A stretch of 24,239 nt of DNA from Perkinsus chesapeaki (taxonomy: Eukaryota > Perkinsozoa > Perkinsida > Perkinsidae). The number at the start of each line of letters is the position of its first letter. Position 1 is the stretch's first letter. The DNA lies in the NCBI GenBank assembly GCA_013115145.1, contig JAAPAO010000048.1, positions 1 to 24,239 on the forward strand, read 5' to 3'. Below, one piece after another: positions 2,511 to 24,239 of this stretch. Made by a program: the position numbers and the translations under genes. The notes under the pieces are model-generated. The model made no database searches. It saw only the letters and a list, made by a program, of their open reading frames with translations, and was not told where the DNA came from.

Positions 2511-3566
2511 TTAAAGACGCATCCAAGATGTCTCCTGCCAAGTTTCAACTCTATTAAAATAAGTATTGACCAAGGCCACCAAGCCTTCGCTAGAGCTGTA
2601 GCTCAGCTGCTGAGCCTGCCCTATATAGCATATCCTTTCGACCTTGAAATAATCATACAGCAACACTCGGTACAGGTGCTCATCGAGTGCGCTGCTGACA
2701 TAAAGGCATTTCCCGTGCAGACCCAAGGAGAGCCCTCTTGGCCTTGGTACAGAGTTTGTTACTGTCAACCATGAGGATGCTCCGAGACTGTCCCAGCAGA
2801 ATACGCTACTATCGAGTAGGTTAACGACAAACACTAGTCCTTTAAGGACCGCGAACTCATATGAGATCAATGGTGCTCCGCAAATGACAGGAGATCGAAC
2901 AGAAACACCAGTGTTGAGGTTAACCCGAACTATGCATTTATTATCTCGATCGCTGAGGTAGAGAAGCTCCCCTCCTTCAGCAATAACTTTCGGTACACAT
3001 GGTCCAAGAGAGCCGTCTCGAAATAGCCATGCTCGGAGGTCCAAGGCCTTGAGCATTTTACGCTTGAGCAACAGCAAACGGGAATCACTAAGTGACACCA
3101 CGAAACCGTCACGGCCGATACCACACACGCTGAGGACGTCGCAGTTGGTAGCCCAAGCGAACTCGGGAAACCGACCGAGTTGGCTCAGTCCAACCACATA
3201 GGGATTTCGGGAGATGATAAGATTGTTGTTATCTTCGTAAGATATACTTACAGAATCACCAGAACGAAAGTAGGCTTCTGGGTGACTAGTTTTCAATAAA
3301 GTTGGTGATGGTGACAGAAATGACCAAAGCTCACTGCAGATTTCTAAAGGCAGCTTTGATACGTAATAGTGAGCAGCAGCCAGACTGATGATTATGTCGA
3401 AACTGCCGTGGTGAGTAGGAGTGTCCCTCAAGCCCTTCAAGTTGGCCATCAGAGCAATAACTTTTACTGTATCGAAAATATGCAAGTGAAAAATGTTGGA
3501 GAGACGACATTTCTCGTGTAGTCGTGGAGGCTTATCCGGTGCTTTTAGAGAGATCTTTGCCCCCAA
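2511..3566 (-). CDS. NHL/beta-propeller-like protein with an F-box-like segment, 351 aa
   Basis: Longest clean intronless ORF of the left half. Residues about 66-90 read LPLEICSELWSFL followed by a short helical stretch, which is F-box-like (LP.E....LWSFL). Residues about 185-240 contain NHL-type blades: GELLYLSDRDNKCIVRVNLN and, later, GKCLYVSSALDEHLYRVLL. NHL and SMP-30-type propellers bind protein or small ligands, so a role as a substrate-recognition or scaffold protein is inference. Met41 is an alternative start. The pairing of a short F-box-like motif with a propeller suggests a ubiquitin-ligase adaptor, but I cannot confirm the F-box by eye. It faces the helical ORF at 3597-4048 head to head. 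Confidence 0.7.
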   Translation of the reverse strand: MGAKISLKAPDKPPRLHEKCRLSNIFHLHIFDTVKVIALMANLKGLRDTPTHHGSFDIIISLAAAHYYVSKLPLEICSELWSFLSPSPTLLKTSHPEAYFRSGDSVSISYEDNNNLIISRNPYVVGLSQLGRFPEFAWATNCDVLSVCGIGRDGFVVSLSDSRLLLLKRKMLKALDLRAWLFRDGSLGPCVPKVIAEGGELLYLSDRDNKCIVRVNLNTGVSVRSPVICGAPLISYEFAVLKGLVFVVNLLDSSVFCWDSLGASSWLTVTNSVPRPRGLSLGLHGKCLYVSSALDEHLYRVLLYDYFKVERICYIGQAQQLSYSSSEGLVALVNTYFNRVETWQETSWMRL

Positions 3567-3596
3567 TTCACCACCAGACGAGAAGAGCTCAATATT

Positions 3597-4048
3597 AAAC
3601 GAACAACAGGTTTAAGACAGATGAATTTGAGTTAGTAGTAAACCATATACGGGATCAGACTGGAAAGTCTCATGAAAGACCGAGAAGCCTCTACGAGATA
3701 TTGAAACTCCTTTCACATCGGTTACTAGTCGATTATGCAAAGTTCACTCAAGCTTGTGATGCGCCGAAAAGATCCTCAGTATCAGAAGAGACAACACATC
3801 TCAGCGTAATGGGATATGAGACGGTTGAACTACTGGTTGATACTGGCAAACTCAGAGCAATCAAGCAATTGCTTCCGAAACAATTATTGCAATGCAAAAT
3901 GTACAGGCAGGAATCTTCGAAGACGGTTCCTATCTCGAAGGTGGCACCAGAGACTCGGCTGATGCTCCTCGGTCCAGTCGACTGCTTGCTATCGACTTTG
4001 GCATCCCAAACACCTAAGCCAAGCCATATGATGTGGAGAGGAGGATAA
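3597..4048 (+). CDS. unassigned helical-protein exon(s)
   Basis: Frame open for 150 codons from a TAA at 3594 to TAA at 4046-4048, with a plausible acceptor (AACAACAG) at about 3603-3610. The sequence is mostly charged amphipathic helix (SLYEILKLLSHRLLVDYAKF, then YETVELLVDTGKLRAIKQLL). Other open frames downstream (4030-4130 and 4145-4288, the latter with GAPIDDIKEGEDASKGED) are protein-like and may be later exons of the same gene, but I could not thread phases. The LVDTG string resembles a retropepsin active site, but its helical surroundings argue against that. A trafficking- or TPR-type helical repeat is as likely. Confidence 0.35.
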
Positions 4049-4299
4049 GGGTCTACGCTTTCACGGGGCTCAAGACTGGCGTCGATGGAGGGCGAATAAC
4101 TGAGAGAGATTTTTCATTAAAATATATGTAAGGGCGAGTGGAGGACATACCTCTACCTTGCTTGTGGGCCTTTGAAATGGTGGAAGTGCCCGGCGCACCG
4201 ATAGACGATATAAAAGAGGGTGAAGATGCCAGCAAGGGTGAAGACAACCATCTGAAGGTTAAAGAGACGTCACAACGTCTCACGAAGCGTTGAATTAAG

Positions 4300-4973
4300 T
4301 GCAGTAAAGGGCCTTACTGTAATTCTGAGAAGGCCAGAGTCTCGTCCGGGCTCCAAGATGTAGTCAGCCCAGAATGACTGTGCTGCTGATGAGGCAGTGT
4401 AACCATCCTGAGAAGGGGGCTTTGGAATTAATTGTACTTAGATCTACATAAAAAGTGTAATTCATTATCAATTGTATCAGTTTCATTCGATTAGTAATGT
4501 AATTAGTATGAAAAGTAGATCAACGAGAGCGTTATCGCTTAGCCTTCTCAGCGGTAAATAGAAGTACTGTGAGACGTACAGTTAACTCTGAGAAAGAAAG
4601 AATAGCGAAATGCATTAAATTGACGTTAATTTGAACCACGCCTGTGATCGAATGTCTACAATCGCTGCCGTGATGACGCAGTCTGACCCTCTGTGGGCCG
4701 CAAGACTACTTTACTCGATATGGTAAGAAGGACGCGAAGGTAAAACAAGTTAACATCGAAGACTTAGTCTCATCACGTGATTGGCCGAGACTAAAGAATC
4801 TTATATTAGAAATGTAAGTGACCTCCCTTATGAGGAGAATCGTTATATATTAGCAGTCAGCCAGTTCATGCAATCGATAACTCCCGTCGTAACGCTAAGC
4901 AATGTCAAGTAGCAAGTAACGATGTTTTGAGCGAAGTATCTTTGATGGGTTTTAGGTGTTGATATAGGTTAAC
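4300..4973. other. AT-rich intergenic stretch
   Basis: No frame with protein character and no repeat or RNA gene visible on either strand. Probably 3' flank of the left neighbour plus promoter region of the gene that follows. Confidence 0.4.
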
Positions 4974-5216
4974 ATGAGAAGTGTTGTCAACAAGGCTTGC
5001 CTACCTTGGAATCGTCTACTCGCCATTTGACAGCTATTGGCTCCACTACGGCTAATGATTCATGTATCGGTAACAATAGTAGAAAAACGATGTTCATTAA
5101 AACAATAGGCTGACTTCCAATTAACCTGTTATGAATCTTGACGACGTTATTGTGAGTGCTCATCAAATTTATTCTCACGCTCAGGATCGTCAAGACTTTC
5201 AAAACTTATTTTTCAG

Positions 5217-6004
5217 AGTTCACCTCATCAAAAGACCAATTTGGGGTTGTCAAATTCTTGCCTATCTTGCAATATCTTGACATTCCCCAACGGAACCGCG
5301 TCAATCAAAAATCATCATCAGTCGGGGCCCAGGCAGCTAATTTGAAAACAGTGTGTGGTGTTGGTATTTACATGTCCGATCCTTGGAAGCTTCAAGTTGT
5401 ATGGCAACGGTTGATTGAGAATGAGACCATGCAATATGCTAACTTTGCCGAGAATATGCAGAAACAAAGAGAAGAAGCGGTAATATTGGTAGAGTGGTGT
5501 AATTCGCGGTATGTATCCGATAACCATGGTTCGATTCTCCGGTAGGGTATTGAGGAACAAGAGCGATATTTACCTCATAAATTAATTAATTTCGAGATCG
5601 TAGTTAGTTTTCTGGAGTGCGAGGCGATTTCATGTGAGTCCAGGAAAAGGAATCTCTTCATCCAAAGCTTCGTAAGAGGCTACCAAGCTGTCAAAATTCA
5701 GAAGAAAAGTTTCACACTTTCCTCAACTAGTCCCGTTTAATAGAATCAATGCTACCGTCGCACTGGGCCGCCGAATTAAGACGTTGAAAACTCATACAAG
5801 CGGATGGTGGAATAGACTCGAAGTTAAGTGGCAAAAGAAATCATTCAGGCAGCAGCAAAGGCAGCTTTGGAAGGTGTAGCATCTCGAAGCATTCAGACAG
5901 ATGGTGATGATCGAGGAGGAAGATCTAATAAAGGCAGGGGAATGGTTGATAGATGTTGTCGAGGAGGGTTTATGCCTCATTTTAAATGGGGTATTTGTCA
6001 TTAG
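5217..6004 (+). CDS. multi-exon gene, 3' part (at least 185 aa), family unknown
   Basis: Exons 5217-5512, 5546-5633 and 5829-6004 give 186 codons to TAG with all phases consistent. Alternative acceptors at 5184 and 5216 are both in frame, and the true 5' end is not resolved; an ATG at 4974 heads a short basic presequence-like peptide (MRSVVNKACLPWNRLLA) that could be exon 1. The first exon is a coherent globular sequence (GVGIYMSDPWKLQVVWQRLI, then YANFAENMQKQREEA). The last exon has an Ala-rich helix (AKEIIQAAAKAALEG) and a Gly/Arg-rich, Cys-containing tail. The 33-nt first intron holds a tRNA T-arm copy; the second intron is 195 nt with an atypical acceptor (GTTAAG). Confidence 0.6.
5513..5545 (+). 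repeat. 33-nt intron carrying a sense tRNA T-arm
   Basis: Donor GTATCC, acceptor CGGTAG. T-stem strands at 5525-5529 and 5537-5541 flank the loop TTCGATT at 5530-5536. The T-stem pairs only partly. Use of the better-looking donor GTATGT at 5509 would force an early stop downstream, whereas the 5513 donor keeps long open frames on both sides, so 33 nt is preferred. The intron ends in an in-frame TAG, so it must be removed. Confidence 0.65.
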
Positions 6005-7426: not shown

Positions 7427-8517
7427 ATGATAGGCTCGATTGTGCCGTCAACATTGGGAGCATTGTCGACAACCGCAGGGGTCGCTGGAGCATCGGCTAC
7501 AGGTAATGATCAGAAGGAAATTTGGTAGTACTCGGGAAGTTCTTAGTGACTTCGTATCGACCTTTATGATGGTGAAAGCCTGTAATTGATTTCCACTGGC
7601 TTCCATGGACCATTTACCATATCAATGTCTACATCTTACGTGTCTAAAGAGAGCATCCTGTCGACTGTGCAGATAGTGAGTATCTTAGATGTCGTCATCC
7701 GTTCCAATTCCCATACTGCCTTATGTGGAGTAAATGGGCTTTCCTCCTCGTCGCCGTATTGTCTTAAGAAATACCCCTCTATAAAGTGGTATAGGACTTC
7801 AGTTACCCCAGCCCTCCTTATCTTAGGTTCGTATATATTTCACCGTAAGCCAAGGCTGTGTGGGAGGATCGGGGAGTTCCTGTTGCTGGTGTATGCAGTA
7901 TTTAGACTCTCTTTCTTTGCTGGACATACATTACGGGGACGACTTGAGTCTAGTGATGCTATAGAGGAGAGCGATCGGTTAAGAGGTGATGGCAGTTGAG
8001 GCCTTGGCGGTTGGAAAGGTGGAATTCGTAGAAACGCATTTTTGCGGAGACGTCGTGGACAGTACCTCTAGATGGAAGCATAGGCGGCCTTTGGATTCAG
8101 TTTCTTGTACCGAGTTGAACAGTCGAGTATCATCGTTGAGCTCATCCCTGGAAGCAGACACGAGGCTGTTGGATAAAATGGTCCGTTATGTTGGCGGAAT
8201 GGGAATGGATGAGGTATGTGGTTCGACAGGTATCGGGTTCAATTCCCGTGTGATGTGTTTTTGGTAGAATGGGACATCAATGCTGGCGGATCAACAGCGG
8301 ATAGTTGACGATAAGACTGAGGAGTTGAGTGTCGCAAAGCATCGGCGAGATGACTGCTATGAGCGAGCTGCAGAGTGGGAGGAGGTGGGTAGGGCATCAT
8401 CGGCAGCCTAAGCGGGGTGCTCACAGCCTCACGGGTGTTGTCCGGAAGTAATAGATAGATAAGATAAAGAGTGTAATTGACAAACAAACAATAAATCTTC
8501 AATTTTGCGTGCAATGA
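7427..8517 (+). CDS. seven-exon gene, membrane-anchored coiled-coil protein, 207 aa
   Basis: Exons 7427-7502, 7673-7729, 7803-7844, 7899-7985, 8032-8213, 8268-8384 and 8455-8517 total 624 nt, exactly 208 codons including TGA, with every phase agreeing. Introns are 170, 73, 54, 46, 54 and 70 nt. The protein starts with a Ser/Thr/Ala-rich segment, has one hydrophobic span at about residues 42-65 (ITPALLILGSYIF), then long hydrophilic helices typical of a coiled coil (SRVSSLSSSLEADTRLLDKM, later ADQQRIVDDKTEELSVAKHR). It is probably a single-pass membrane protein with a cytosolic or lumenal coiled coil. The fifth intron carries a tRNA 3'-end copy. Exon 1 is also phase-compatible with the exon at 10000, so a read-across isoform cannot be excluded. 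No family recognised. Confidence 0.6.
8214..8267 (+). repeat. 54-nt intron carrying a sense tRNA 3' end plus T-run
   Basis: Donor GTATGT. T-stem TCGGG at 8233-8237, loop TTCAATT 8238-8244, stem CCCGT 8245-8249, 7-nt acceptor strand 8250-8256, discriminator G 8257, TTTTT at 8258-8262, then GGTAG. Four of five T-stem pairs form. The T-run sits where a Pol III terminator follows a tRNA gene and acts as the polypyrimidine tract. Confidence 0.85.
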
Positions 8518-12126: not shown

Positions 12127-12193
12127 TCCTGTGCCCCCACGCCCATCAGCCGATATTGGTTCAATACCGGCTAGCGGACGTGGGGGCACAGGA
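12127..12193. repeat. 67-nt nested hairpin
   Basis: Outer arms of 15 nt are exactly complementary (12127-12141, TCCTGTGCCCCCACG, with 12179-12193). Inside, AGCCG (12148-12152) pairs with CGGCT (12168-12172) and ATTG with CAAT around a GTT loop. The two stems are offset by short unpaired stretches. Confidence 0.85.
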
Positions 12194-14546: not shown

Positions 14547-15250
14547 ACGAATAATATTCCTATACACCACGTCGTATCGAGGCCGACTATAATGTATTTC
14601 TTGTCTACTGTGTTTTAAAGAAATCGGGAATCTCGCATATAGTTTTCTATCGGACCACAGCATTTCCCGGTCATGCTTCCGACATGCGCACAGTTATTTC
14701 CGAGATACCGCAGGCAAATATCCGGCGCGTCACAATTATTCCCGACCAGCACCCATTTATCCGATTCGGCCATGTGCAATATCCGACGAATACGGTCATT
14801 CTAATATCTGCACAATTCTACATCTCAAATACCCGATAGCCTACTTTTCAATATCCGCGGGCGCTAATCCAAAAGAATCTTCTGCGCAGAAATCGGAAAT
14901 AACAATGCGCATGTCGGAAACATGACGGGGAAATGCTGTAGTTGGATGTACTATAGCTGCTCAGTGGAGTTAAAGCTCGTACTTAGGCTAGGCATTGGTA
15001 TTCATTTTATAATAAGGATTCAACATGCCCCACTTTTAATTTCTAACTCGGGAACTCTACGAACCCAAAATGAATACGATATCATAAAAGGGACATGTTA
15101 CCTGTGTTCCCTCAATAGTCTCGTCATTCTGATAAGATACAAAATAGGTTAACTCGGTGCCTCAATACAGTTGTGGGAAATTTCGTTTTCTTACCATCAC
15201 TCAGTTGACTTAATTCCCCTTTTCATTGGTTGTTTTCCTAATATTGGCAG
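14547..15250. other. non-coding stretch with a MITE-like element, 5' of the first TOR exon seen
   Basis: Includes the inverted-repeat element at 14658-14938. The DNA from 14939 to 15250 has no HEAT-like frame, and 15216-15250 is a pyrimidine-rich intron end (CTAATATTGGCAG). Upstream TOR exons were not found here. Confidence 0.4.
14658..14938. mobile_element. MITE-like element with 49-nt terminal inverted repeats
   Basis: Left arm 14658-14706 and right arm 14890-14938 are inverted complements at 43 of 49 positions (ends CAGCATTTCCC and GGGAAATGCTG). The 183-nt interior has no ORF of note but repeats the motif AATATCCG three times (near 14718, 14781 and 14850). Weak similarity extends a few bases beyond the arms. 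No clear target-site duplication is visible, so the exact ends are uncertain. Non-autonomous: no transposase. Confidence 0.75.
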
Positions 15251-18200: not shown

Positions 18201-21200
18201 CAGGCAAACATCAAAGATTATGTCTTCTCCGAGATGAATCTCATAATCCTTTTGGTCAAGGATGGTCCTTCCTAGCATTACTCGATTATGTCTTCTCCGC
18301 ATTACGTTATTCTGAGGCCAGATGACTCTTTGTGTAGGTGTTTGGACCATCAACATCCACTCGTCCGTAAAATGGCAGCGAAGACAATCACTAAGTTGCT
18401 CTTGCCGGTCGATCTGCCCACAGACGATGAGAGGGAGAGGAAACCGTCATTTAATGATGAGGTGAGACCATGATAATCGTGCCTGTTACATAGCTGGCGT
18501 GTTGGAGTATCACATTGGTGTCCTCCGCGGAGCCCCACCACAATTTCACGACTCTGAGATTCACGTCAGAAAGTGCTGAGGAAATGTTTTGTCGATTCGC
18601 GCAATATTCCCTAAACTCGTCCCATAGATGTATATAGGGTACCTTATGCGTACCAGCCTAGCTCTGGCTGGTTAAGTCCAGGTGTTTAAGGGATTTCTCG
18701 CTTCCACCTGCTAGCATTAAAAATTGAGTGAATTCACTCGGCTCTATGGAAAGATAAAATGATGTGGATTGAGTTGCTACTGATCGACATTTTGCGATAA
18801 AATGACATTATATCCTTCCGGGCAACCACCGTGATGAGGATTAGCGATTACCTTCACTACTGCAGGAGAAGTTGGGTGAATTTGTGAGCGGTTTTTTCTT
18901 TGTCAGACCCCTCACACGAATGCTTCATCGGAATGTTCGGACACTCAACCCAGTCGAGGGAGACAGATAGTTTTGTGCAAACCGCACCATATAGAAGCCA
19001 TTTCAAGGGTGGTGCAACGCTTGTTAGTTTTAGCGGTTGCAGATACTGATCCGGATATAAGGTGGGTGCTGGGGATCGAACCTGCGTGGTTTGGATGACA
19101 GCTGTTGTAGGTACTCGGTGTTCGACGGTATTGATCGACGATTTGATCCATTCCTTTCGGATCGGACATGTATAGCAGCGATAACTCAGGTAGGCAAGTC
19201 GTGGGTTCGATCCCGGCATGTTGCATTTTTAATAGGCTTTAAATGATGAATCTTTGATTGTGAGGAAGGCAGCGGTGAAGCTCCTCGGAAGGCTCTGTTA
19301 TCATAATCCAGCTTACGTCCTGCCGGCACTGAGAAAGCTTCTTATACAGCTTTTAACAGAGTTGGAATATAATCACGTAAATGGCCACCCGGGTTCGATC
19401 CTCGGCCGGGGCACTTTTCCGTTAGGCTGATCTCGGTGGGGAGGAAGCCGCCGAGTTATTGTGCGATTTGCTTTCAAAAGCTGGCACCCATATGAGCCCA
19501 TATGTTCTGGCAGTCGTCGAGGCGGTTGTATCGAAACTTAGTCGACCGGAGCCGATTCCACCGCGGTGAGAAAATGCTCTTGCCGGGGATCGAACCAGGG
19601 TGGATCCTGTCGCCACAGATACACATCACTCCTGTTGGAGGCTTTAGGCCAGTTGAGCGATATTTCCGGGCAGTCGATTTTATCGAGCGGGATGATCGAT
19701 GATATACTTCAATTGCTTGTAGATAACATTCAGGTAGGTTCCGGGTTCGATCCTCGGTAAGGGTATTTTAGGATACCAGATCGGGTGGCGAAGGTGACCA
19801 AGCTGTACAATGGGACAAGAAAAAAGAAGTCGCATATAGGTGGGTCATGGACGGGAAGCTCTGGGGAATTTACCTTTGGTCTTAAGTGTGAACTCTCGAG
19901 CCAAAATGGACGCCTAACCAGTTGAGTATTTTTCACATCTGGAAATAGACTTTACAGCGAGTCACACTTGTTAGGAACTATACTTTTGTTCAATGATTGT
20001 GAAAAGCTGACGGAGACGATGCCAGAACTGTCACGTCGGGCATGCGGCCTGTACCGGGCCGCGGCTATAGGAGAAGTCGTACTTCTGGATTGGGGTTCAG
20101 ACAGCATAGGTCATGATGAATCTCATTAAAAACTGATGAAAGCTTGTTCAATTTTTTGCACCATTCGCTCCGGAAGTTGATTGTGATGATGAGCAGGACT
20201 CCACAAAGACACATCGGGCATACCGGGCCGGATTAGAATCGTCTTAGCTTGATTAACAGTGAATTATGGCTGTTGCTAGTGTGAATAAAAAGCTCTTATT
20301 ATTGGGCTCTACCGAATAGCTTGAATTATCGCCCTCCTGTTCAGGACCCTATCCCGCGTGATTGAGAACACTGGTTTGGTGGTTGTCCCCTACGAGAAGT
20401 TCCCTCCACTTCTACCCTATATGATTGACTTTCTAAGAGCTGATGCTCAACACACCGCCCATACGGCAGTCAGGCGTCAGGTGCTGCCGCAACCGGGGAT
20501 CGAACCCGGGTGGATCGATTGCTAAATCAGGCTATCCGAGCGATAGGCACATTAGGCGCCCTCGACCCGAGCAGGTTTGATGCGCTGAAGCATATTGCTA
20601 CCATACCAGCGATTGATACCGCCTCTGCTGGCCAGCTGGCACAACAACAACACGACTCGAGATCCTGTAGGGGATAGATGCTTGTTTGCTTACACTTGCT
20701 TTGTTGATAGCAGCGACTTTGGCAACTCAGAGCACTATGGTGGCTGTGTCACACTCACACGGTCTTCCTCCTCCTCCTCCTACTGGAGGAGGACCAAGCC
20801 CTGGGGAAGCAGCGGCATTCGAAGCAAAACCATCAACCGTTGGTGAGAATGTCCTTATTATGTCATAATGTTGTCTTATGGGTCGTATCCTCACAGCAGA
20901 CTAACATAACACACATTTGTGAATCTTGGTGGCTCAATACTGTAACGCCGTCAGAGCTAGCTGCGGTCAGAAAAGGTGTACTGTTGAGAGTTTTGAAAAC
21001 CTTACATTAACCGCGTAGTTGATATTATATATGTACTTCAAAACTGTTATATGTTGCCGTCTGAATGTTTTGCTGGAAAACATTTCTGGGGGAATTTCTC
21101 CGAAGTTCGATCGATATGTGGGCGTTGGTTGAGCGGTGTTACGGATGGTATTACGGTAGATTGAATGATACATCCTTTACTTAGGCACTGTGGTGGCTGG

Positions 21201-23865
21201 TGCCGGGTGTGGTGGTGGTGGTGCACCTTACGCCTGCTATGGGTTCACTGCAAGTATTGCTGCTGGTATGGATCTTCAACAACAACTGTTAACGGTTATG
21301 ATACAAATGGCATCTGAGGAGGTCAGTTGTTGACTTAGTCTTCACATCCGCTTTCTGACTTCAACGTTTAATATATTATTTATTTACTCTGCATACCATA
21401 AAGTCCGGTTTACTGCTGCACTTATCGGTTATGTGGGCTCTTCTTGGATTTACGCTATAACATTAACCCTCCTCCTATCAGACTGCATAGTCACCTCACA
21501 CTGGTCAAATCGGTTTTCGTAGCAAATATTATTATCTAGTTTTATAGACGAGCAAATGCGGGGATTCCGGCGGTGCTTATTAACAGATGTGGAAAAGTGA
21601 ATCTGAATCATCACAAATTCTGGTATTGGTTAATTTGACAACTCGCCATATTGCATGATAGTTTTATAACTGTCCCTTTTTGTGTGCTGTCAGGGTGTCA
21701 GTGGTGATGGCTGCAGTGGTAGTCCTCCAGATGGGATGAGTCAGCAGCGTGACGGTAAGTGCTCATGTGGATACGTTATCATCCATACCGGCTTTCCCAT
21801 TTAGTTGATCAAAATGCGGGGCAGCAGCGTCTGGCTCAGGCGAGTGCGGCTCCAGCTTGGGCGGCGAGTGGAGCAGATAATCCGCAAACATGCAAGTAAG
21901 GCGTAGGAATTGAACCTGGTCACTCGCATGAAAGTCTAACATCATAACCGTTCAGGTGGCTGTACACTTCTCATGCTGTGGCAACTTTATTAAAGATGCT
22001 TTGTGATACATCGCTCCCGAGCGACTATCACAGTCATGTCGTCGATGCACTGATGACTATTTTTCAACACCTCGGTCGTCAAGCGGGAGGATGTGTTATG
22101 CCATTCCTACCCCAAATAATGAACTCGATCATATCAGTGGTACAACGCAGCCCCGCCGACAGCTCGATCGCCCACGAGCGAGCGCCACTTCTTCGACATC
22201 TTGCCTATCTGGTCAAAGTAGCAAACGCCAAGCAAATAGCGCCTTATCTGAAATCGATATTCGACTTGGTTGCTGCAGTATGGCCGCCAGAGCCTGTGCG
22301 CGGCGCTGGTGAGATTTGTGAGAAAGTTGGTATAAATTACATTTATTTGTAGTCCAAGTGCCGCCGCCTCCTCCTCCACCTCCTCCACCATCAATCCTGT
22401 CGAATGGTGAGCCTTCGGGTGGTCAGGGCCCAGGCTCACAGTTGGTCATGGTGGCCGCATTACCGACTACATCACCGCCGAACTCGGACAGAGTTGATCT
22501 CATCCTGGCAGCGCTCGCGCTACTTGAAGAGATATGCAAGCAACATCACCACGAATCCAAGGTGGGATTCGAACCCACGACCTTTCGATTGTTAAGTTCA
22601 GGTCTACATGGGTCCCCTCGTTCCGCGAATTCTCCACCTGTTATCGCCTGACCGCGGCCTCGGGTACAGCAGCCAGGATAATGGTGTCATAGCGAGCAAA
22701 GTTCTCTCGTCATTGGTGGTGTTCGGATCGACTATCACGGAGTTTATGCATTTAGTCATACCGACACTTACCAACCTTTTCGACTATACGCCTTCCAACT
22801 ACGCCAATGAAGGTGAGCTTGGAGGAGAATCTTGTAAATGATAAACTGTCTGTGGATGGGTATCGTAAAGTAGGTCTTGTGGACCTTGTTCTTCGATAGA
22901 GCATCTCGCAAAGCATCAGGCGATCCATCAAAAGCATGTGTTCCTTAAATGACTTTGAGTATTATTTGTGAAGACACGCCATACTCAGTAAAGGCTACCG
23001 GTCAGCTAATAATAATGATCGACAACTTTTCCTAGTGTGAAGCAGTAACAAGAGCTCTATCTTTCCAAAGTGCCGATCAACTATCCGAGTAGCCGGAAAC
23101 ATTTCGAACGAAAGCATATCCCTCCCCGGGTTGCTCTGAATGGGGATATGCGACACAGGATGCTCATCGGCAACCTCAGCTGCTCCAAAGTTGATTATCA
23201 TGTTAAAGCGTTTTATTACATTATAAAAAGTGCTGTGAAACACGAGCGGCGAGAAGTGTGTATCATAATGAGAATACAGTTATGAAGTCAAGGATTAGGA
23301 TCTTACTGGTTGCAATTTGTAAAAAGAAGAAACTGTCCTACCCGGGGATCGAACCAGGGATCTTTTGCTAATGGAAAATCTACGAAATTTTTCGTCGTCT
23401 TGCATTTGCTAGAGTCAAGTCTCACTTAAACATTATTCAGGTCACTCAGTAGTGCCTCCTCCGATGCATATCCGCATTAAAGCCATCAAAGTTGTTGGTG
23501 CTCTATCCAAGCAAGTGCCATTCGCACAGTTCTCCGGTCGGATTACTCATCCTTTGGTCCGAATACTCGACAACGAAAGCGCCCCGCTTGAGCTTAAGCA
23601 CGTTGCCCTGGGCTGCCTGGGTCAGTTGGCTCGCTCCTTCGGCGAAGGCTTTGCCATCTACGCACCGCTAATAAATCGTACCTGCATTCGACACGGCCTT
23701 CCAGCTGTGTTTGATACACCGGAGGGGAAGAGCGAATGTCGAGCGTTCAATCGAATGGTTGTGTCACCGAGATTTGCCCCACCTGGTCGGATGCATTCGA
23801 GGAGCCTGTCCGATGGTGGTGACCTATGTGGCATACCTGACACTACGATTGCTCCGGGCTCACAG
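15251..23865 (+). CDS. TOR: target of rapamycin (TOR) kinase, HEAT-repeat region, partial
   Basis: PI3K-like kinase that senses nutrients as the core of TORC1/TORC2. I thread 27 exons: 15251-15401, 15442-15741, 15822-15989, 16303-16432, 16484-16541, 16587-16734, 17420-17524, 17800-17836, 17883-17997, 18338-18461, 18907-19061, 19111-19189, 19236-19376, 19426-19565, 19619-19733, 19772-19839, 19949-20050, 20345-20480, 20531-20666, 20711-20842, 21185-21321, 21694-21754, 21805-21895, 21956-22308, 22353-22561, 22602-22812, 23441-23865. They sum to 1342 in-phase codons. Diagnostic stretches include [53 protein letters not shown] and [18 protein letters not shown], in the same order as in animal mTOR. 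A Pro/Gly-rich linker (exons 20711-21895) sits where mTOR has a disordered loop. Upstream HEAT repeats and the start are not found; FAT, FRB and kinase domains lie beyond the right edge. Donor 15742 versus 15748 and acceptor 23440 versus 23452 are alternatives. Confidence 0.92.
19062..19110 (-). repeat. TOR intron, antisense tRNA 3' end (49 nt)
   Basis: Read on the minus strand, the T-arm is 19085-19069 with loop TTCGATC (GATCGAA on plus at 19074-19080). The 7-nt acceptor strand is 19062-19068, so the intron begins exactly at the tRNA acceptor strand (donor GTGGGTG). Only the two inner T-stem pairs form. Confidence 0.75.
19190..19235 (+). repeat. TOR intron, sense tRNA 3' end plus T-run (46 nt)
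   Basis: T-stem GTGGG 19201-19205, loop TTCGATC 19206-19212, stem CCGGC 19213-19217, acceptor strand ATGTTGC 19218-19224, discriminator A 19225, TTTTT 19226-19230, then AATAG. The preceding CAAGTC fits a tRNA variable loop. Confidence 0.88.
19377..19425 (+). repeat. TOR intron, sense tRNA 3' end plus T-run (49 nt)
   Basis: T-stem CCGGG 19389-19393, loop TTCGATC 19394-19400, stem CTCGG 19401-19405 (five pairs with one G-T), acceptor strand CCGGGGC 19406-19412, discriminator A 19413, then CTTTTCC and GTTAG. Confidence 0.9.
19566..19618 (-). repeat. TOR intron, antisense tRNA 3' end with A-run (53 nt)
   Basis: On the plus strand: donor GTGAG, AAAA 19571-19574 (a Pol III terminator read backwards), T 19575 (discriminator A), acceptor strand GCTCTTG 19576-19582, T-arm CCGGG-GATCGAA-CCAGG 19583-19599. 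The remainder reads GGATCCACCC on minus and ends at CCACAG. The acceptor at 19618, rather than 19648, is required to keep [15 protein letters not shown] in frame. Confidence 0.9.
19734..19771 (+). repeat. TOR intron, sense tRNA 3' end plus T-run (38 nt)
   Basis: T-stem CCGGG 19741-19745, loop TTCGATC 19746-19752, stem CTCGG 19753-19757, acceptor strand TAAGGGT 19758-19764, discriminator A 19765, TTTT 19766-19769 and immediately AG. Nearly the whole intron is tRNA 3' end. Confidence 0.92.
19840..19948 (-). repeat. TOR intron with a degenerate, near full-length antisense tRNA-like sequence
   Basis: On minus, CTCAACTGGTTAGGCGTCC (19925-19907) looks like a D-arm/A-box, and GGTAAATTCCCC (19874-19863) is a damaged B-box. 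The 34-nt spacing between them fits a tRNA gene. Stems do not pair well. Confidence 0.5.
20481..20530 (-). repeat. TOR intron, antisense tRNA 3' half (50 nt)
   Basis: On plus: T 20485, acceptor strand GCCGCAA 20486-20492, T-arm CCGGG-GATCGAA-CCCGG 20493-20509 with five perfect pairs. On minus the part before the T-arm reads TTAGCAA, an anticodon-loop-like heptamer with AGC (Ala). Confidence 0.92.
21896..21955 (-). repeat. TOR intron, antisense tRNA-like from D-loop to acceptor (60 nt)
   Basis: Acceptor strand GTAAGGC 21896-21902 starts at the donor; T-arm GTAGG-AATTGAA-CCTGG 21903-21919 (inner three pairs). Farther in, the minus strand has CTTTCAT (anticodon-loop-like, TTC) and GGTTATGATGTTAGAC resembling a D-arm, so this copy retains more of the tRNA. 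Confidence 0.8.
22562..22601 (-). repeat. TOR intron, antisense tRNA 3' part (40 nt)
   Basis: Donor GTGGG is itself the T-stem: GTGGG-ATTCGAA-CCCAC at 22562-22578, five perfect pairs. Minus strand upstream reads AAAGGTC (variable loop) and TTAACAA (anticodon-loop-like, AAC). Confidence 0.92.
23334..23358 (-). repeat. antisense tRNA 3' end inside a 628-nt TOR intron
   Basis: Within intron 22813-23440. T 23334, acceptor strand GTCCTAC 23335-23341, T-arm CCGGG-GATCGAA-CCAGG 23342-23358; an A-rich run (23321-23333) precedes it where an antisense terminator would be. Confidence 0.82.
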
Positions 23866-24239
23866 GTGAGGCAGACAGGTTTGCCGTATTGCAATTTGGT
23901 CCATAGTTTTTTCCTTGCTACTGTCAGGGAGCCATCTGGATACTGTAGATTAGTTTCTGAGTACAATTGTGAATATCTTTTTATTTGGTCCAATTTGAGC
24001 ATCAAACATCCATTTGACATCACAGCTGGGATTTATATAGTTGTATTTTTTGAAATAATAGTTTTGCTATCTTATGAGGGCCGGAGATTGGCCTGTCCAA
24101 AATTCGCCTGATTCCGGTTCACTTTTTAATATTATACAATCCCCTTTATTTCCTCTATATATCAAGTATTATACAATCCCCTTTATTTCCTCTATATATC
24201 AAGTATTATACAATCCCCTTTATTTCCTCTATATATCAA
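23866..24239 (+). other. TOR intron, 5' part, running off the window
   Basis: Begins with donor GTGAGG after ...GSQ. No acceptor with a continuing TOR frame was found before the edge. Ends in a tandem repeat. Confidence 0.6.
24130..24239. repeat. 37-bp tandem repeat, about three copies
   Basis: Units 24130-24166, 24167-24203 and 24204-24239 (36 nt, cut by the edge) are identical. Unit begins TATTATACAATCCCC. AT-rich with a CCCC core. Confidence 0.97.

Follow-up and report, generated by a model that had tools for sequence, protein, structure and literature searches.

The origin of new introns is a long-standing question, and the locus described here raises it directly: can introns be made from the 3' ends of tRNA genes? 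An original prediction for the window (the whole stretch of 24,239 nucleotides that was analysed, contig C423:1-24239 of the assembly of 35.4 Mb and 884 contigs that we searched) held that nine introns of a TOR gene carry a T arm with a seven-nucleotide B-box loop, mostly followed by the acceptor strand and discriminator base of a tRNA. The region belongs to the gene of a TOR kinase, as the exon at 23449-23760 matches mTOR and kinase-domain matches lie downstream on the same contig (31.9-33.2 kb). All nine T-loops were located inside TOR introns (Table 1). The eight short introns that had been announced exist, although they span 38-65 nt rather than 38-60 nt, and the layout of seven bases, discriminator and T-run is complete in the introns beginning at 19190, 19377, 19566 and 19734, whereas in the other five it is incomplete or lacking. 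Homology to TOR had been said to fix the intron boundaries; it does so for the five introns between 19062 and 19771, whose ends are anchored by an alignment to mTOR, but not for the intron at 20476, which was placed by hand.

Table 1. Introns of the window that carry a T arm: those of the TOR gene, followed by two probable introns upstream.
Feature	Position	Strand	T arm and flanking sequence	Basis
TOR intron, 49 nt	19062..19110	+	minus-strand T-loop TTCGATC at 19074-19080, T-stem mostly unpaired	splice model, mTOR alignment
TOR intron, 46 nt	19190..19235	+	sense T arm, 7 nt, A, TTTTT, AATAG	splice model, mTOR alignment
TOR intron, 49 nt	19377..19425	+	sense T arm with 5/5 pairs, CCGGGGC, A, CTTTT, AG	splice model, mTOR alignment
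TOR intron, 53 nt	19566..19618	+	antisense; donor GTGAGAAAATGC includes complement of A-TTTT end	splice model, mTOR alignment
TOR intron, 38 nt	19734..19771	+	sense T arm, TAAGGGT, A, TTTTAG	splice model, mTOR alignment
TOR intron, 65 nt	20476..20540	+	antisense T arm with 5/5 pairs	ends by hand
TOR intron, 60 nt	21896..21955	+	weak antisense T arm, 3/5 pairs	splice model, second gene-finding run
TOR intron, 40 nt	22562..22601	+	antisense T-stem forms donor GTGGG	splice model, second gene-finding run
Antisense T arm in long TOR intron (~22813-23449)	23338..23365	-		motif and profile; intron limits by eye
Probable intron	5509..5554	+	sense T arm, GGTTCGATTC at 5528	gene-finder intron label; ends by eye
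Probable intron	8214..8267	+	sense T arm (TTCAATT), TTTTTGGTAG end	gene-finder intron label; ends by eye

A peptide spliced in silico over the five introns from 19062 to 19771 aligned to mTOR with an E value of 5.3e-33 over residues 4-188 of 207; a one-residue gap adjoins the fourth junction, and the fifth junction lies three residues before the end of the alignment. A simple splice-aware gene model recovered seven of the nine T-arm introns with the same ends. It also made the T-loop near 23346 intronic and divided the stretch of about 22813-23449 into three introns, while our home-made gene finder labelled the T arm at 23338-23365 'intergenic'. The segment 20476-20540 is exon in the splice-aware model and was not called as an intron in another gene-finding run; its ends were picked so that the frame agrees with the mTOR sequence. 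Judged by reading frame, GT-AG ends and mTOR homology, the nine T-arm introns are probable spliceosomal introns, whose splicing we infer. A second copy of TOR without the introns was not found with the 207-aa query.

Neither ARAGORN nor Rfam at its gathering score detected a tRNA gene in the window; a sub-threshold tRNA match lies at 22554-22613. A whole tRNA in the intron at 19566 was considered, but according to the mTOR alignment the stretch in question is exon, and the idea was given up for that reason. The two probable introns at the foot of Table 1 both lie outside the region 19062..23358. At its end (24130-24239) the window has three tandem copies of a 37-nt unit, without a difference over the 36 nt common to all. 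It also holds an inverted repeat with 55-nt arms that are 87 percent complementary and 189 nt apart (14649-14947), and a hairpin (12127-12193) whose 32-nt arms are 84 percent complementary and separated by 3 nt; the hairpin gives a weak, sub-threshold match to a microRNA family.

The T-arm motif is far too abundant to have arisen by chance. GGTTCGAWYC occurs nine times in the window, eight of them in the TOR region, against 0.20 expected, and none of 100 shuffles reached nine. A 37-column profile gave 12 window matches above 8 bits against 1.1 in shuffled sequence, including a second-strand echo (20499) and an apparent chance match (1644); the weak T-loop at 21907 is absent from these 12. Over the whole genome, a B box followed by 11 nt and ATTTT was found 504 times against once in the reversed control, while a somewhat stricter pattern whose tail was shifted outward by one base was found 22 times; GGGTTCGATCC was found 298 times against eight. 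Few of these sites are tRNA genes (2 of 61 sampled for the first pattern; 3 of the 61 GGGTTCGATCC sites examined, all true tRNA-Arg genes). Among the first 100 matches listed, 10 adjacent pairs lie within 2 kb of each other compared to 2.8 expected, one of the ten containing a true tRNA gene, and the few identical 3' parts among the 100 matches listed give no sign of a recent master copy. A chance origin of the motif was therefore rejected on the strength of window shuffles, reversed genome controls and the profile test, and short introns of this kind, which resemble the 3' ends of tRNAs, form a real family present throughout the genome.

In sense introns, GT is followed by a short variable stretch, often AGGTC, then by the two T-stem strands around TTCGANN, seven bases, A or G, a T-run and AG. 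Antisense introns show the reverse order, as in GTAAAATGCC (L132), GTAAAAATGCC (L136) and GTGAGAAAATGC (the TOR intron at 19566). Single introns depart in detail: in 19377-19425 one C precedes the T-run, and in 19734-19771 the T-run fuses with the 3' splice site. When the sense introns were collected, the part from T arm to T-run proved common on the 3' side, while the 5' side was variable and overall similarity was low. Among 58 non-tRNA sites chosen regardless of tail, 41 have A at tRNA-equivalent position 73, while the next four positions, 74-77, are T in 43, 47, 46 and 41 sites, respectively; C at position 48 (44/58) and G at position 46 (42/58) are also conserved.

The original prediction had staked itself on an enrichment of T-arm motifs in introns. 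We measured motif density over about 200 kb with the bait sites masked, using the home-made gene finder, which labelled 330 introns. GGTTCRANNC had 20 matches in called introns, at 17 distinct places of which nine lie in this window. Exons held three, one of which is the intron at 20476 that was placed by hand; intergenic DNA held 18, of which nine are tRNA genes by our reading and one is the T arm near 23346; undecided sequence held five. The densities are 0.885, 0.051, 0.182 and 0.238 per kb, respectively. The reversed motif behaved differently, with counts of 1, 12, 5 and 1 in the same order (0.044, 0.205 and 0.051 per kb in introns, exons and intergenic DNA). Once the window, the tRNA genes and double counts were removed, the enrichment held at 0.387 per kb in introns versus 0.037 in exons and 0.085 in intergenic DNA, on counts that are then small: 8 places in 20.7 kb, 2 in 53.5 kb and 7 in 81.9 kb, with 3 undecided. 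Six of the eight intron places sit in loci that had been chosen for a nearby motif (L043-L062); outside these loci and the window, 197 called introns contain 2 motif places.

Sites sampled by motif were also placed against the called genes. Of 58 GGGTTCGATCC sites, 24 fell in called introns, 7 in exons and 27 outside genes, although the error of the gene finder is visible here in that it also called all three true tRNA-Arg genes of this sample intronic; the corresponding figures for 59 sites with the ATTTT layout were 21, 7 and 31. The short introns with the motif that we collected number 49 (38 sense, 11 antisense), a set that leaves out L056, a tRNA gene. Occupancy is not universal: a gene in L040 with 27 modelled introns contains no element, and a profile search of L040-L042 found none. 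(L042 encodes, at 3487-5049 on the minus strand, a protein with a TIR domain match.) The splice profile of the gene finder was built from the 27 introns modelled in L040 together with nine from TOR, seven of which have a T arm, and the program gives preference to lengths near 48 nt; outside TOR, intron length and splice consensus are therefore not independent evidence.

This bears on the first of three alternatives, namely that the elements entered pre-existing introns, which were later shortened to the 45-50 nt that are usual here. One T arm, that at 23338, does lie within a long intron, and a length of about 43-60 nt is usual in this genome (25 of 27 introns in L040). Yet the element makes up most of each 38-65 nt intron, whereas insertion would be expected to leave longer introns at first, and we regard this history as unlikely, bearing in mind that outside TOR the evidence from length is partly circular, because the finder's length prior favours short introns.

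A second possibility is that tRNA gene 3' ends, or tRNA fragments, were captured directly at exon breaks, which is close to the literal claim that the introns are made of tRNA 3' ends. The layout equals that of a tRNA 3' end, L133 and L078 differ from tRNA-Arg(CCT) by one mismatch in 15, and the intron 19734-19771 resembles the tRNA-Arg(CCT) 3' end by eye. In the nine TOR introns, the T-stem has all five pairs in four cases, four in three, three in one and two in one. It also speaks for direct capture that target-site duplications were not found at intron ends, with a longest shared word of 3.88 compared to 4.03 in shuffled sequence. Over larger samples, however, the two sides of the T-stem turned out to be independent. 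In the ATTTT-layout sample, pairs 49-65 and 51-63 form in 19 and 21 of 59 sites versus 27.5 and 21.8 after shuffling; in the GGGTTCGATCC sample, in which position 51 was fixed by the search pattern, pair 49-65 forms in 26 of 58 versus 23.1. By comparison, 18 distinct T arms of this genome's real tRNAs pair in 17-18 of 18 cases at every position. Over a 15-base 3' part, 117 elements differ by 4.95 mismatches from the closest real tRNA 3' end in an incomplete set of 32, compared to 5.21 for column-shuffled sequences, but by 2.90 mismatches from one another (3.49 shuffled). As a group, the elements do not show the paired T and acceptor stems of a tRNA gene or pseudogene; some single elements do pair. 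Since T-stem partners are independent and the likeness to tRNAs barely exceeds that of shuffled sequence, the introns are not plain copies of tRNA ends, and the literal claim falls. The elements are a family with its own substructure, whose likeness to tRNAs is small but real, and direct capture appears quite improbable. That the motif is instead a B-box-like functional site under selection (a TFIIIC site or splicing signal) rather than a mobile element agrees with the conservation of C48, G46, A73 and TTTT amid variable positions and with the scarcity of half-decayed copies in the window, but is very unlikely given its exact tRNA spacing to the T-run, its two orientations and its presence outside introns.

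Longer forms point to what the source may be. Searches with A-box patterns returned 53 and 86 matches, mostly ordinary tRNA genes, from which we picked about 20 degenerate elements by eye. The A-to-B spacing is 42-44 in 17 of 19 of these hand-picked forms. From the loop outward, their T-stem pairs form in 19, 18, 10, 13 and 9 of 19, and an acceptor strand forms about as many pairs with its own partner (2.95 of 7) as with the partners of other elements (2.98). A search for target-site duplications around 20 A-box elements found none (own flanks 4.70, others 4.69). Among 122 sites, an A-box-like word stands at 42-45 nt in 15, five of them real tRNA genes. Five of 20 fetched A-box forms fall in called introns: in L194 (76 nt) and L200 (78 nt) the intron begins at tRNA position 2 or 1 and ends shortly after the T-run, in L203 (80 nt, antisense) it holds the whole element, and in L197 and L208 it is shorter (54 and 48 nt). 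A near full-length tRNA-like sequence bounded by GT...CAG at L028:985 (minus), labelled intergenic, is by eye perhaps another whole-element intron. Separately, L151 and L170 hold two similar copies whose 3' part reads CCCACAGG...; they may represent a type II tRNA gene that ARAGORN did not detect.

A tRNA-like, Pol III-type (SINE-like) family fits these observations better than tRNA 3' ends as the source, and we lean towards the explanation that a large and diverse family of such elements exists in this genome, 5'-truncated copies of which serve as spliceosomal introns when they lie in genes. The elements would comprise a B box, in some copies also an A box at the spacing seen in tRNAs, and a T-run directly after the equivalent of position 73. 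They would have been transcribed by Pol III and retroposed, and truncated copies landing in genes, presumably in exons rather than in older introns, would have become introns commonly of 38-65 nt. In sense copies, a GT inside or just before the element may act as donor and the terminator T-run as the polypyrimidine tract before AG; in antisense copies, the complement of the tail may provide donors of the GT(A)AAAA type. More tentatively, these elements could form a class in its own right among those that make introns, Pol III-type and tRNA-like, in which the terminator becomes the 3' splice tract, the 5' end can become the 5' splice site and the whole unit is one intron, probably at hundreds of places by extrapolation. 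Because a T-tailed element carries a ready polypyrimidine tract, we predict that insertion beside an AG can create an acceptor at once.

The TOR intron 19840-19957 (118 nt in the splice-aware model) contains, in antisense, the 12 bases CCATTTTGGCTC, which also occur in the dinoflagellate spliced leader; with up to three mismatches allowed, an 18-base version of that leader was not found in the window. At the level of sequence, a Perkinsus-type spliced leader is present in the genome: CCGTAGCCATCTTGGCTCAAG, which corresponds to the 22-nt spliced leader described for P. marinus minus its first base (PMC9399869), has eight exact copies and none in the control. A pattern search for 18S rDNA found none, and a Perkinsus or one of its close relatives is the likely source of the DNA. 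In P. marinus, introns are reported to start at 39 bp, with most of them below 100 bp (PMC3101222). The copies in L187 and L188, around position 1500, have similar flanks and are followed by TTCTT with no GT donor, and may not be ordinary spliced-leader RNA genes.

How do these introns compare with known systems? Most described bulk sources of introns resemble DNA transposons, and if an early-branching relative of dinoflagellates drew introns from tRNA-like elements of Pol III type, this would add a different route of intron gain. tRNA-derived SINEs have A and B boxes at tRNA spacing, end in a T-run, are dispersed and do not keep their stems. The elements described here share with them the T-run end, the dispersal and the loss of stems, and some copies, picked by eye, have both boxes at that spacing, although most sampled sites lack an A box; unlike them, they have no body or LINE-like tail that we noticed, target-site duplications were not found, and copies double as introns. 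We found no description of tRNA-like introns in the titles and abstracts of the open-access literature, to which our claim of novelty is limited; what appears new within that scope is the tRNA-like, Pol III-type sequence of an intron-borne element. Introners, known from many aquatic protists, are elements that recur in many introns of a genome and extend as far as the splice sites; DNA transposition is favoured for most families, and RNA-based proposals are cited as well (PMC9860276). Some introner families are reported to lack target-site duplications or terminal inverted repeats, so that the absence of duplications is not in itself new (PMC9860276). SINEs, tRNA and Perkinsus are not mentioned in the main text of that study, and although the introns of this genome may likewise have an element in common, the tRNA-like, Pol III-type sequence belongs only to the one described here. 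The introner elements of Amoebophrya, a related alveolate, are likewise invasive introns, but they are described as having inverted and direct repeats and mostly non-GT-AG ends (PMC7789003), whereas the introns reported here have GT-AG ends and are tRNA-like.
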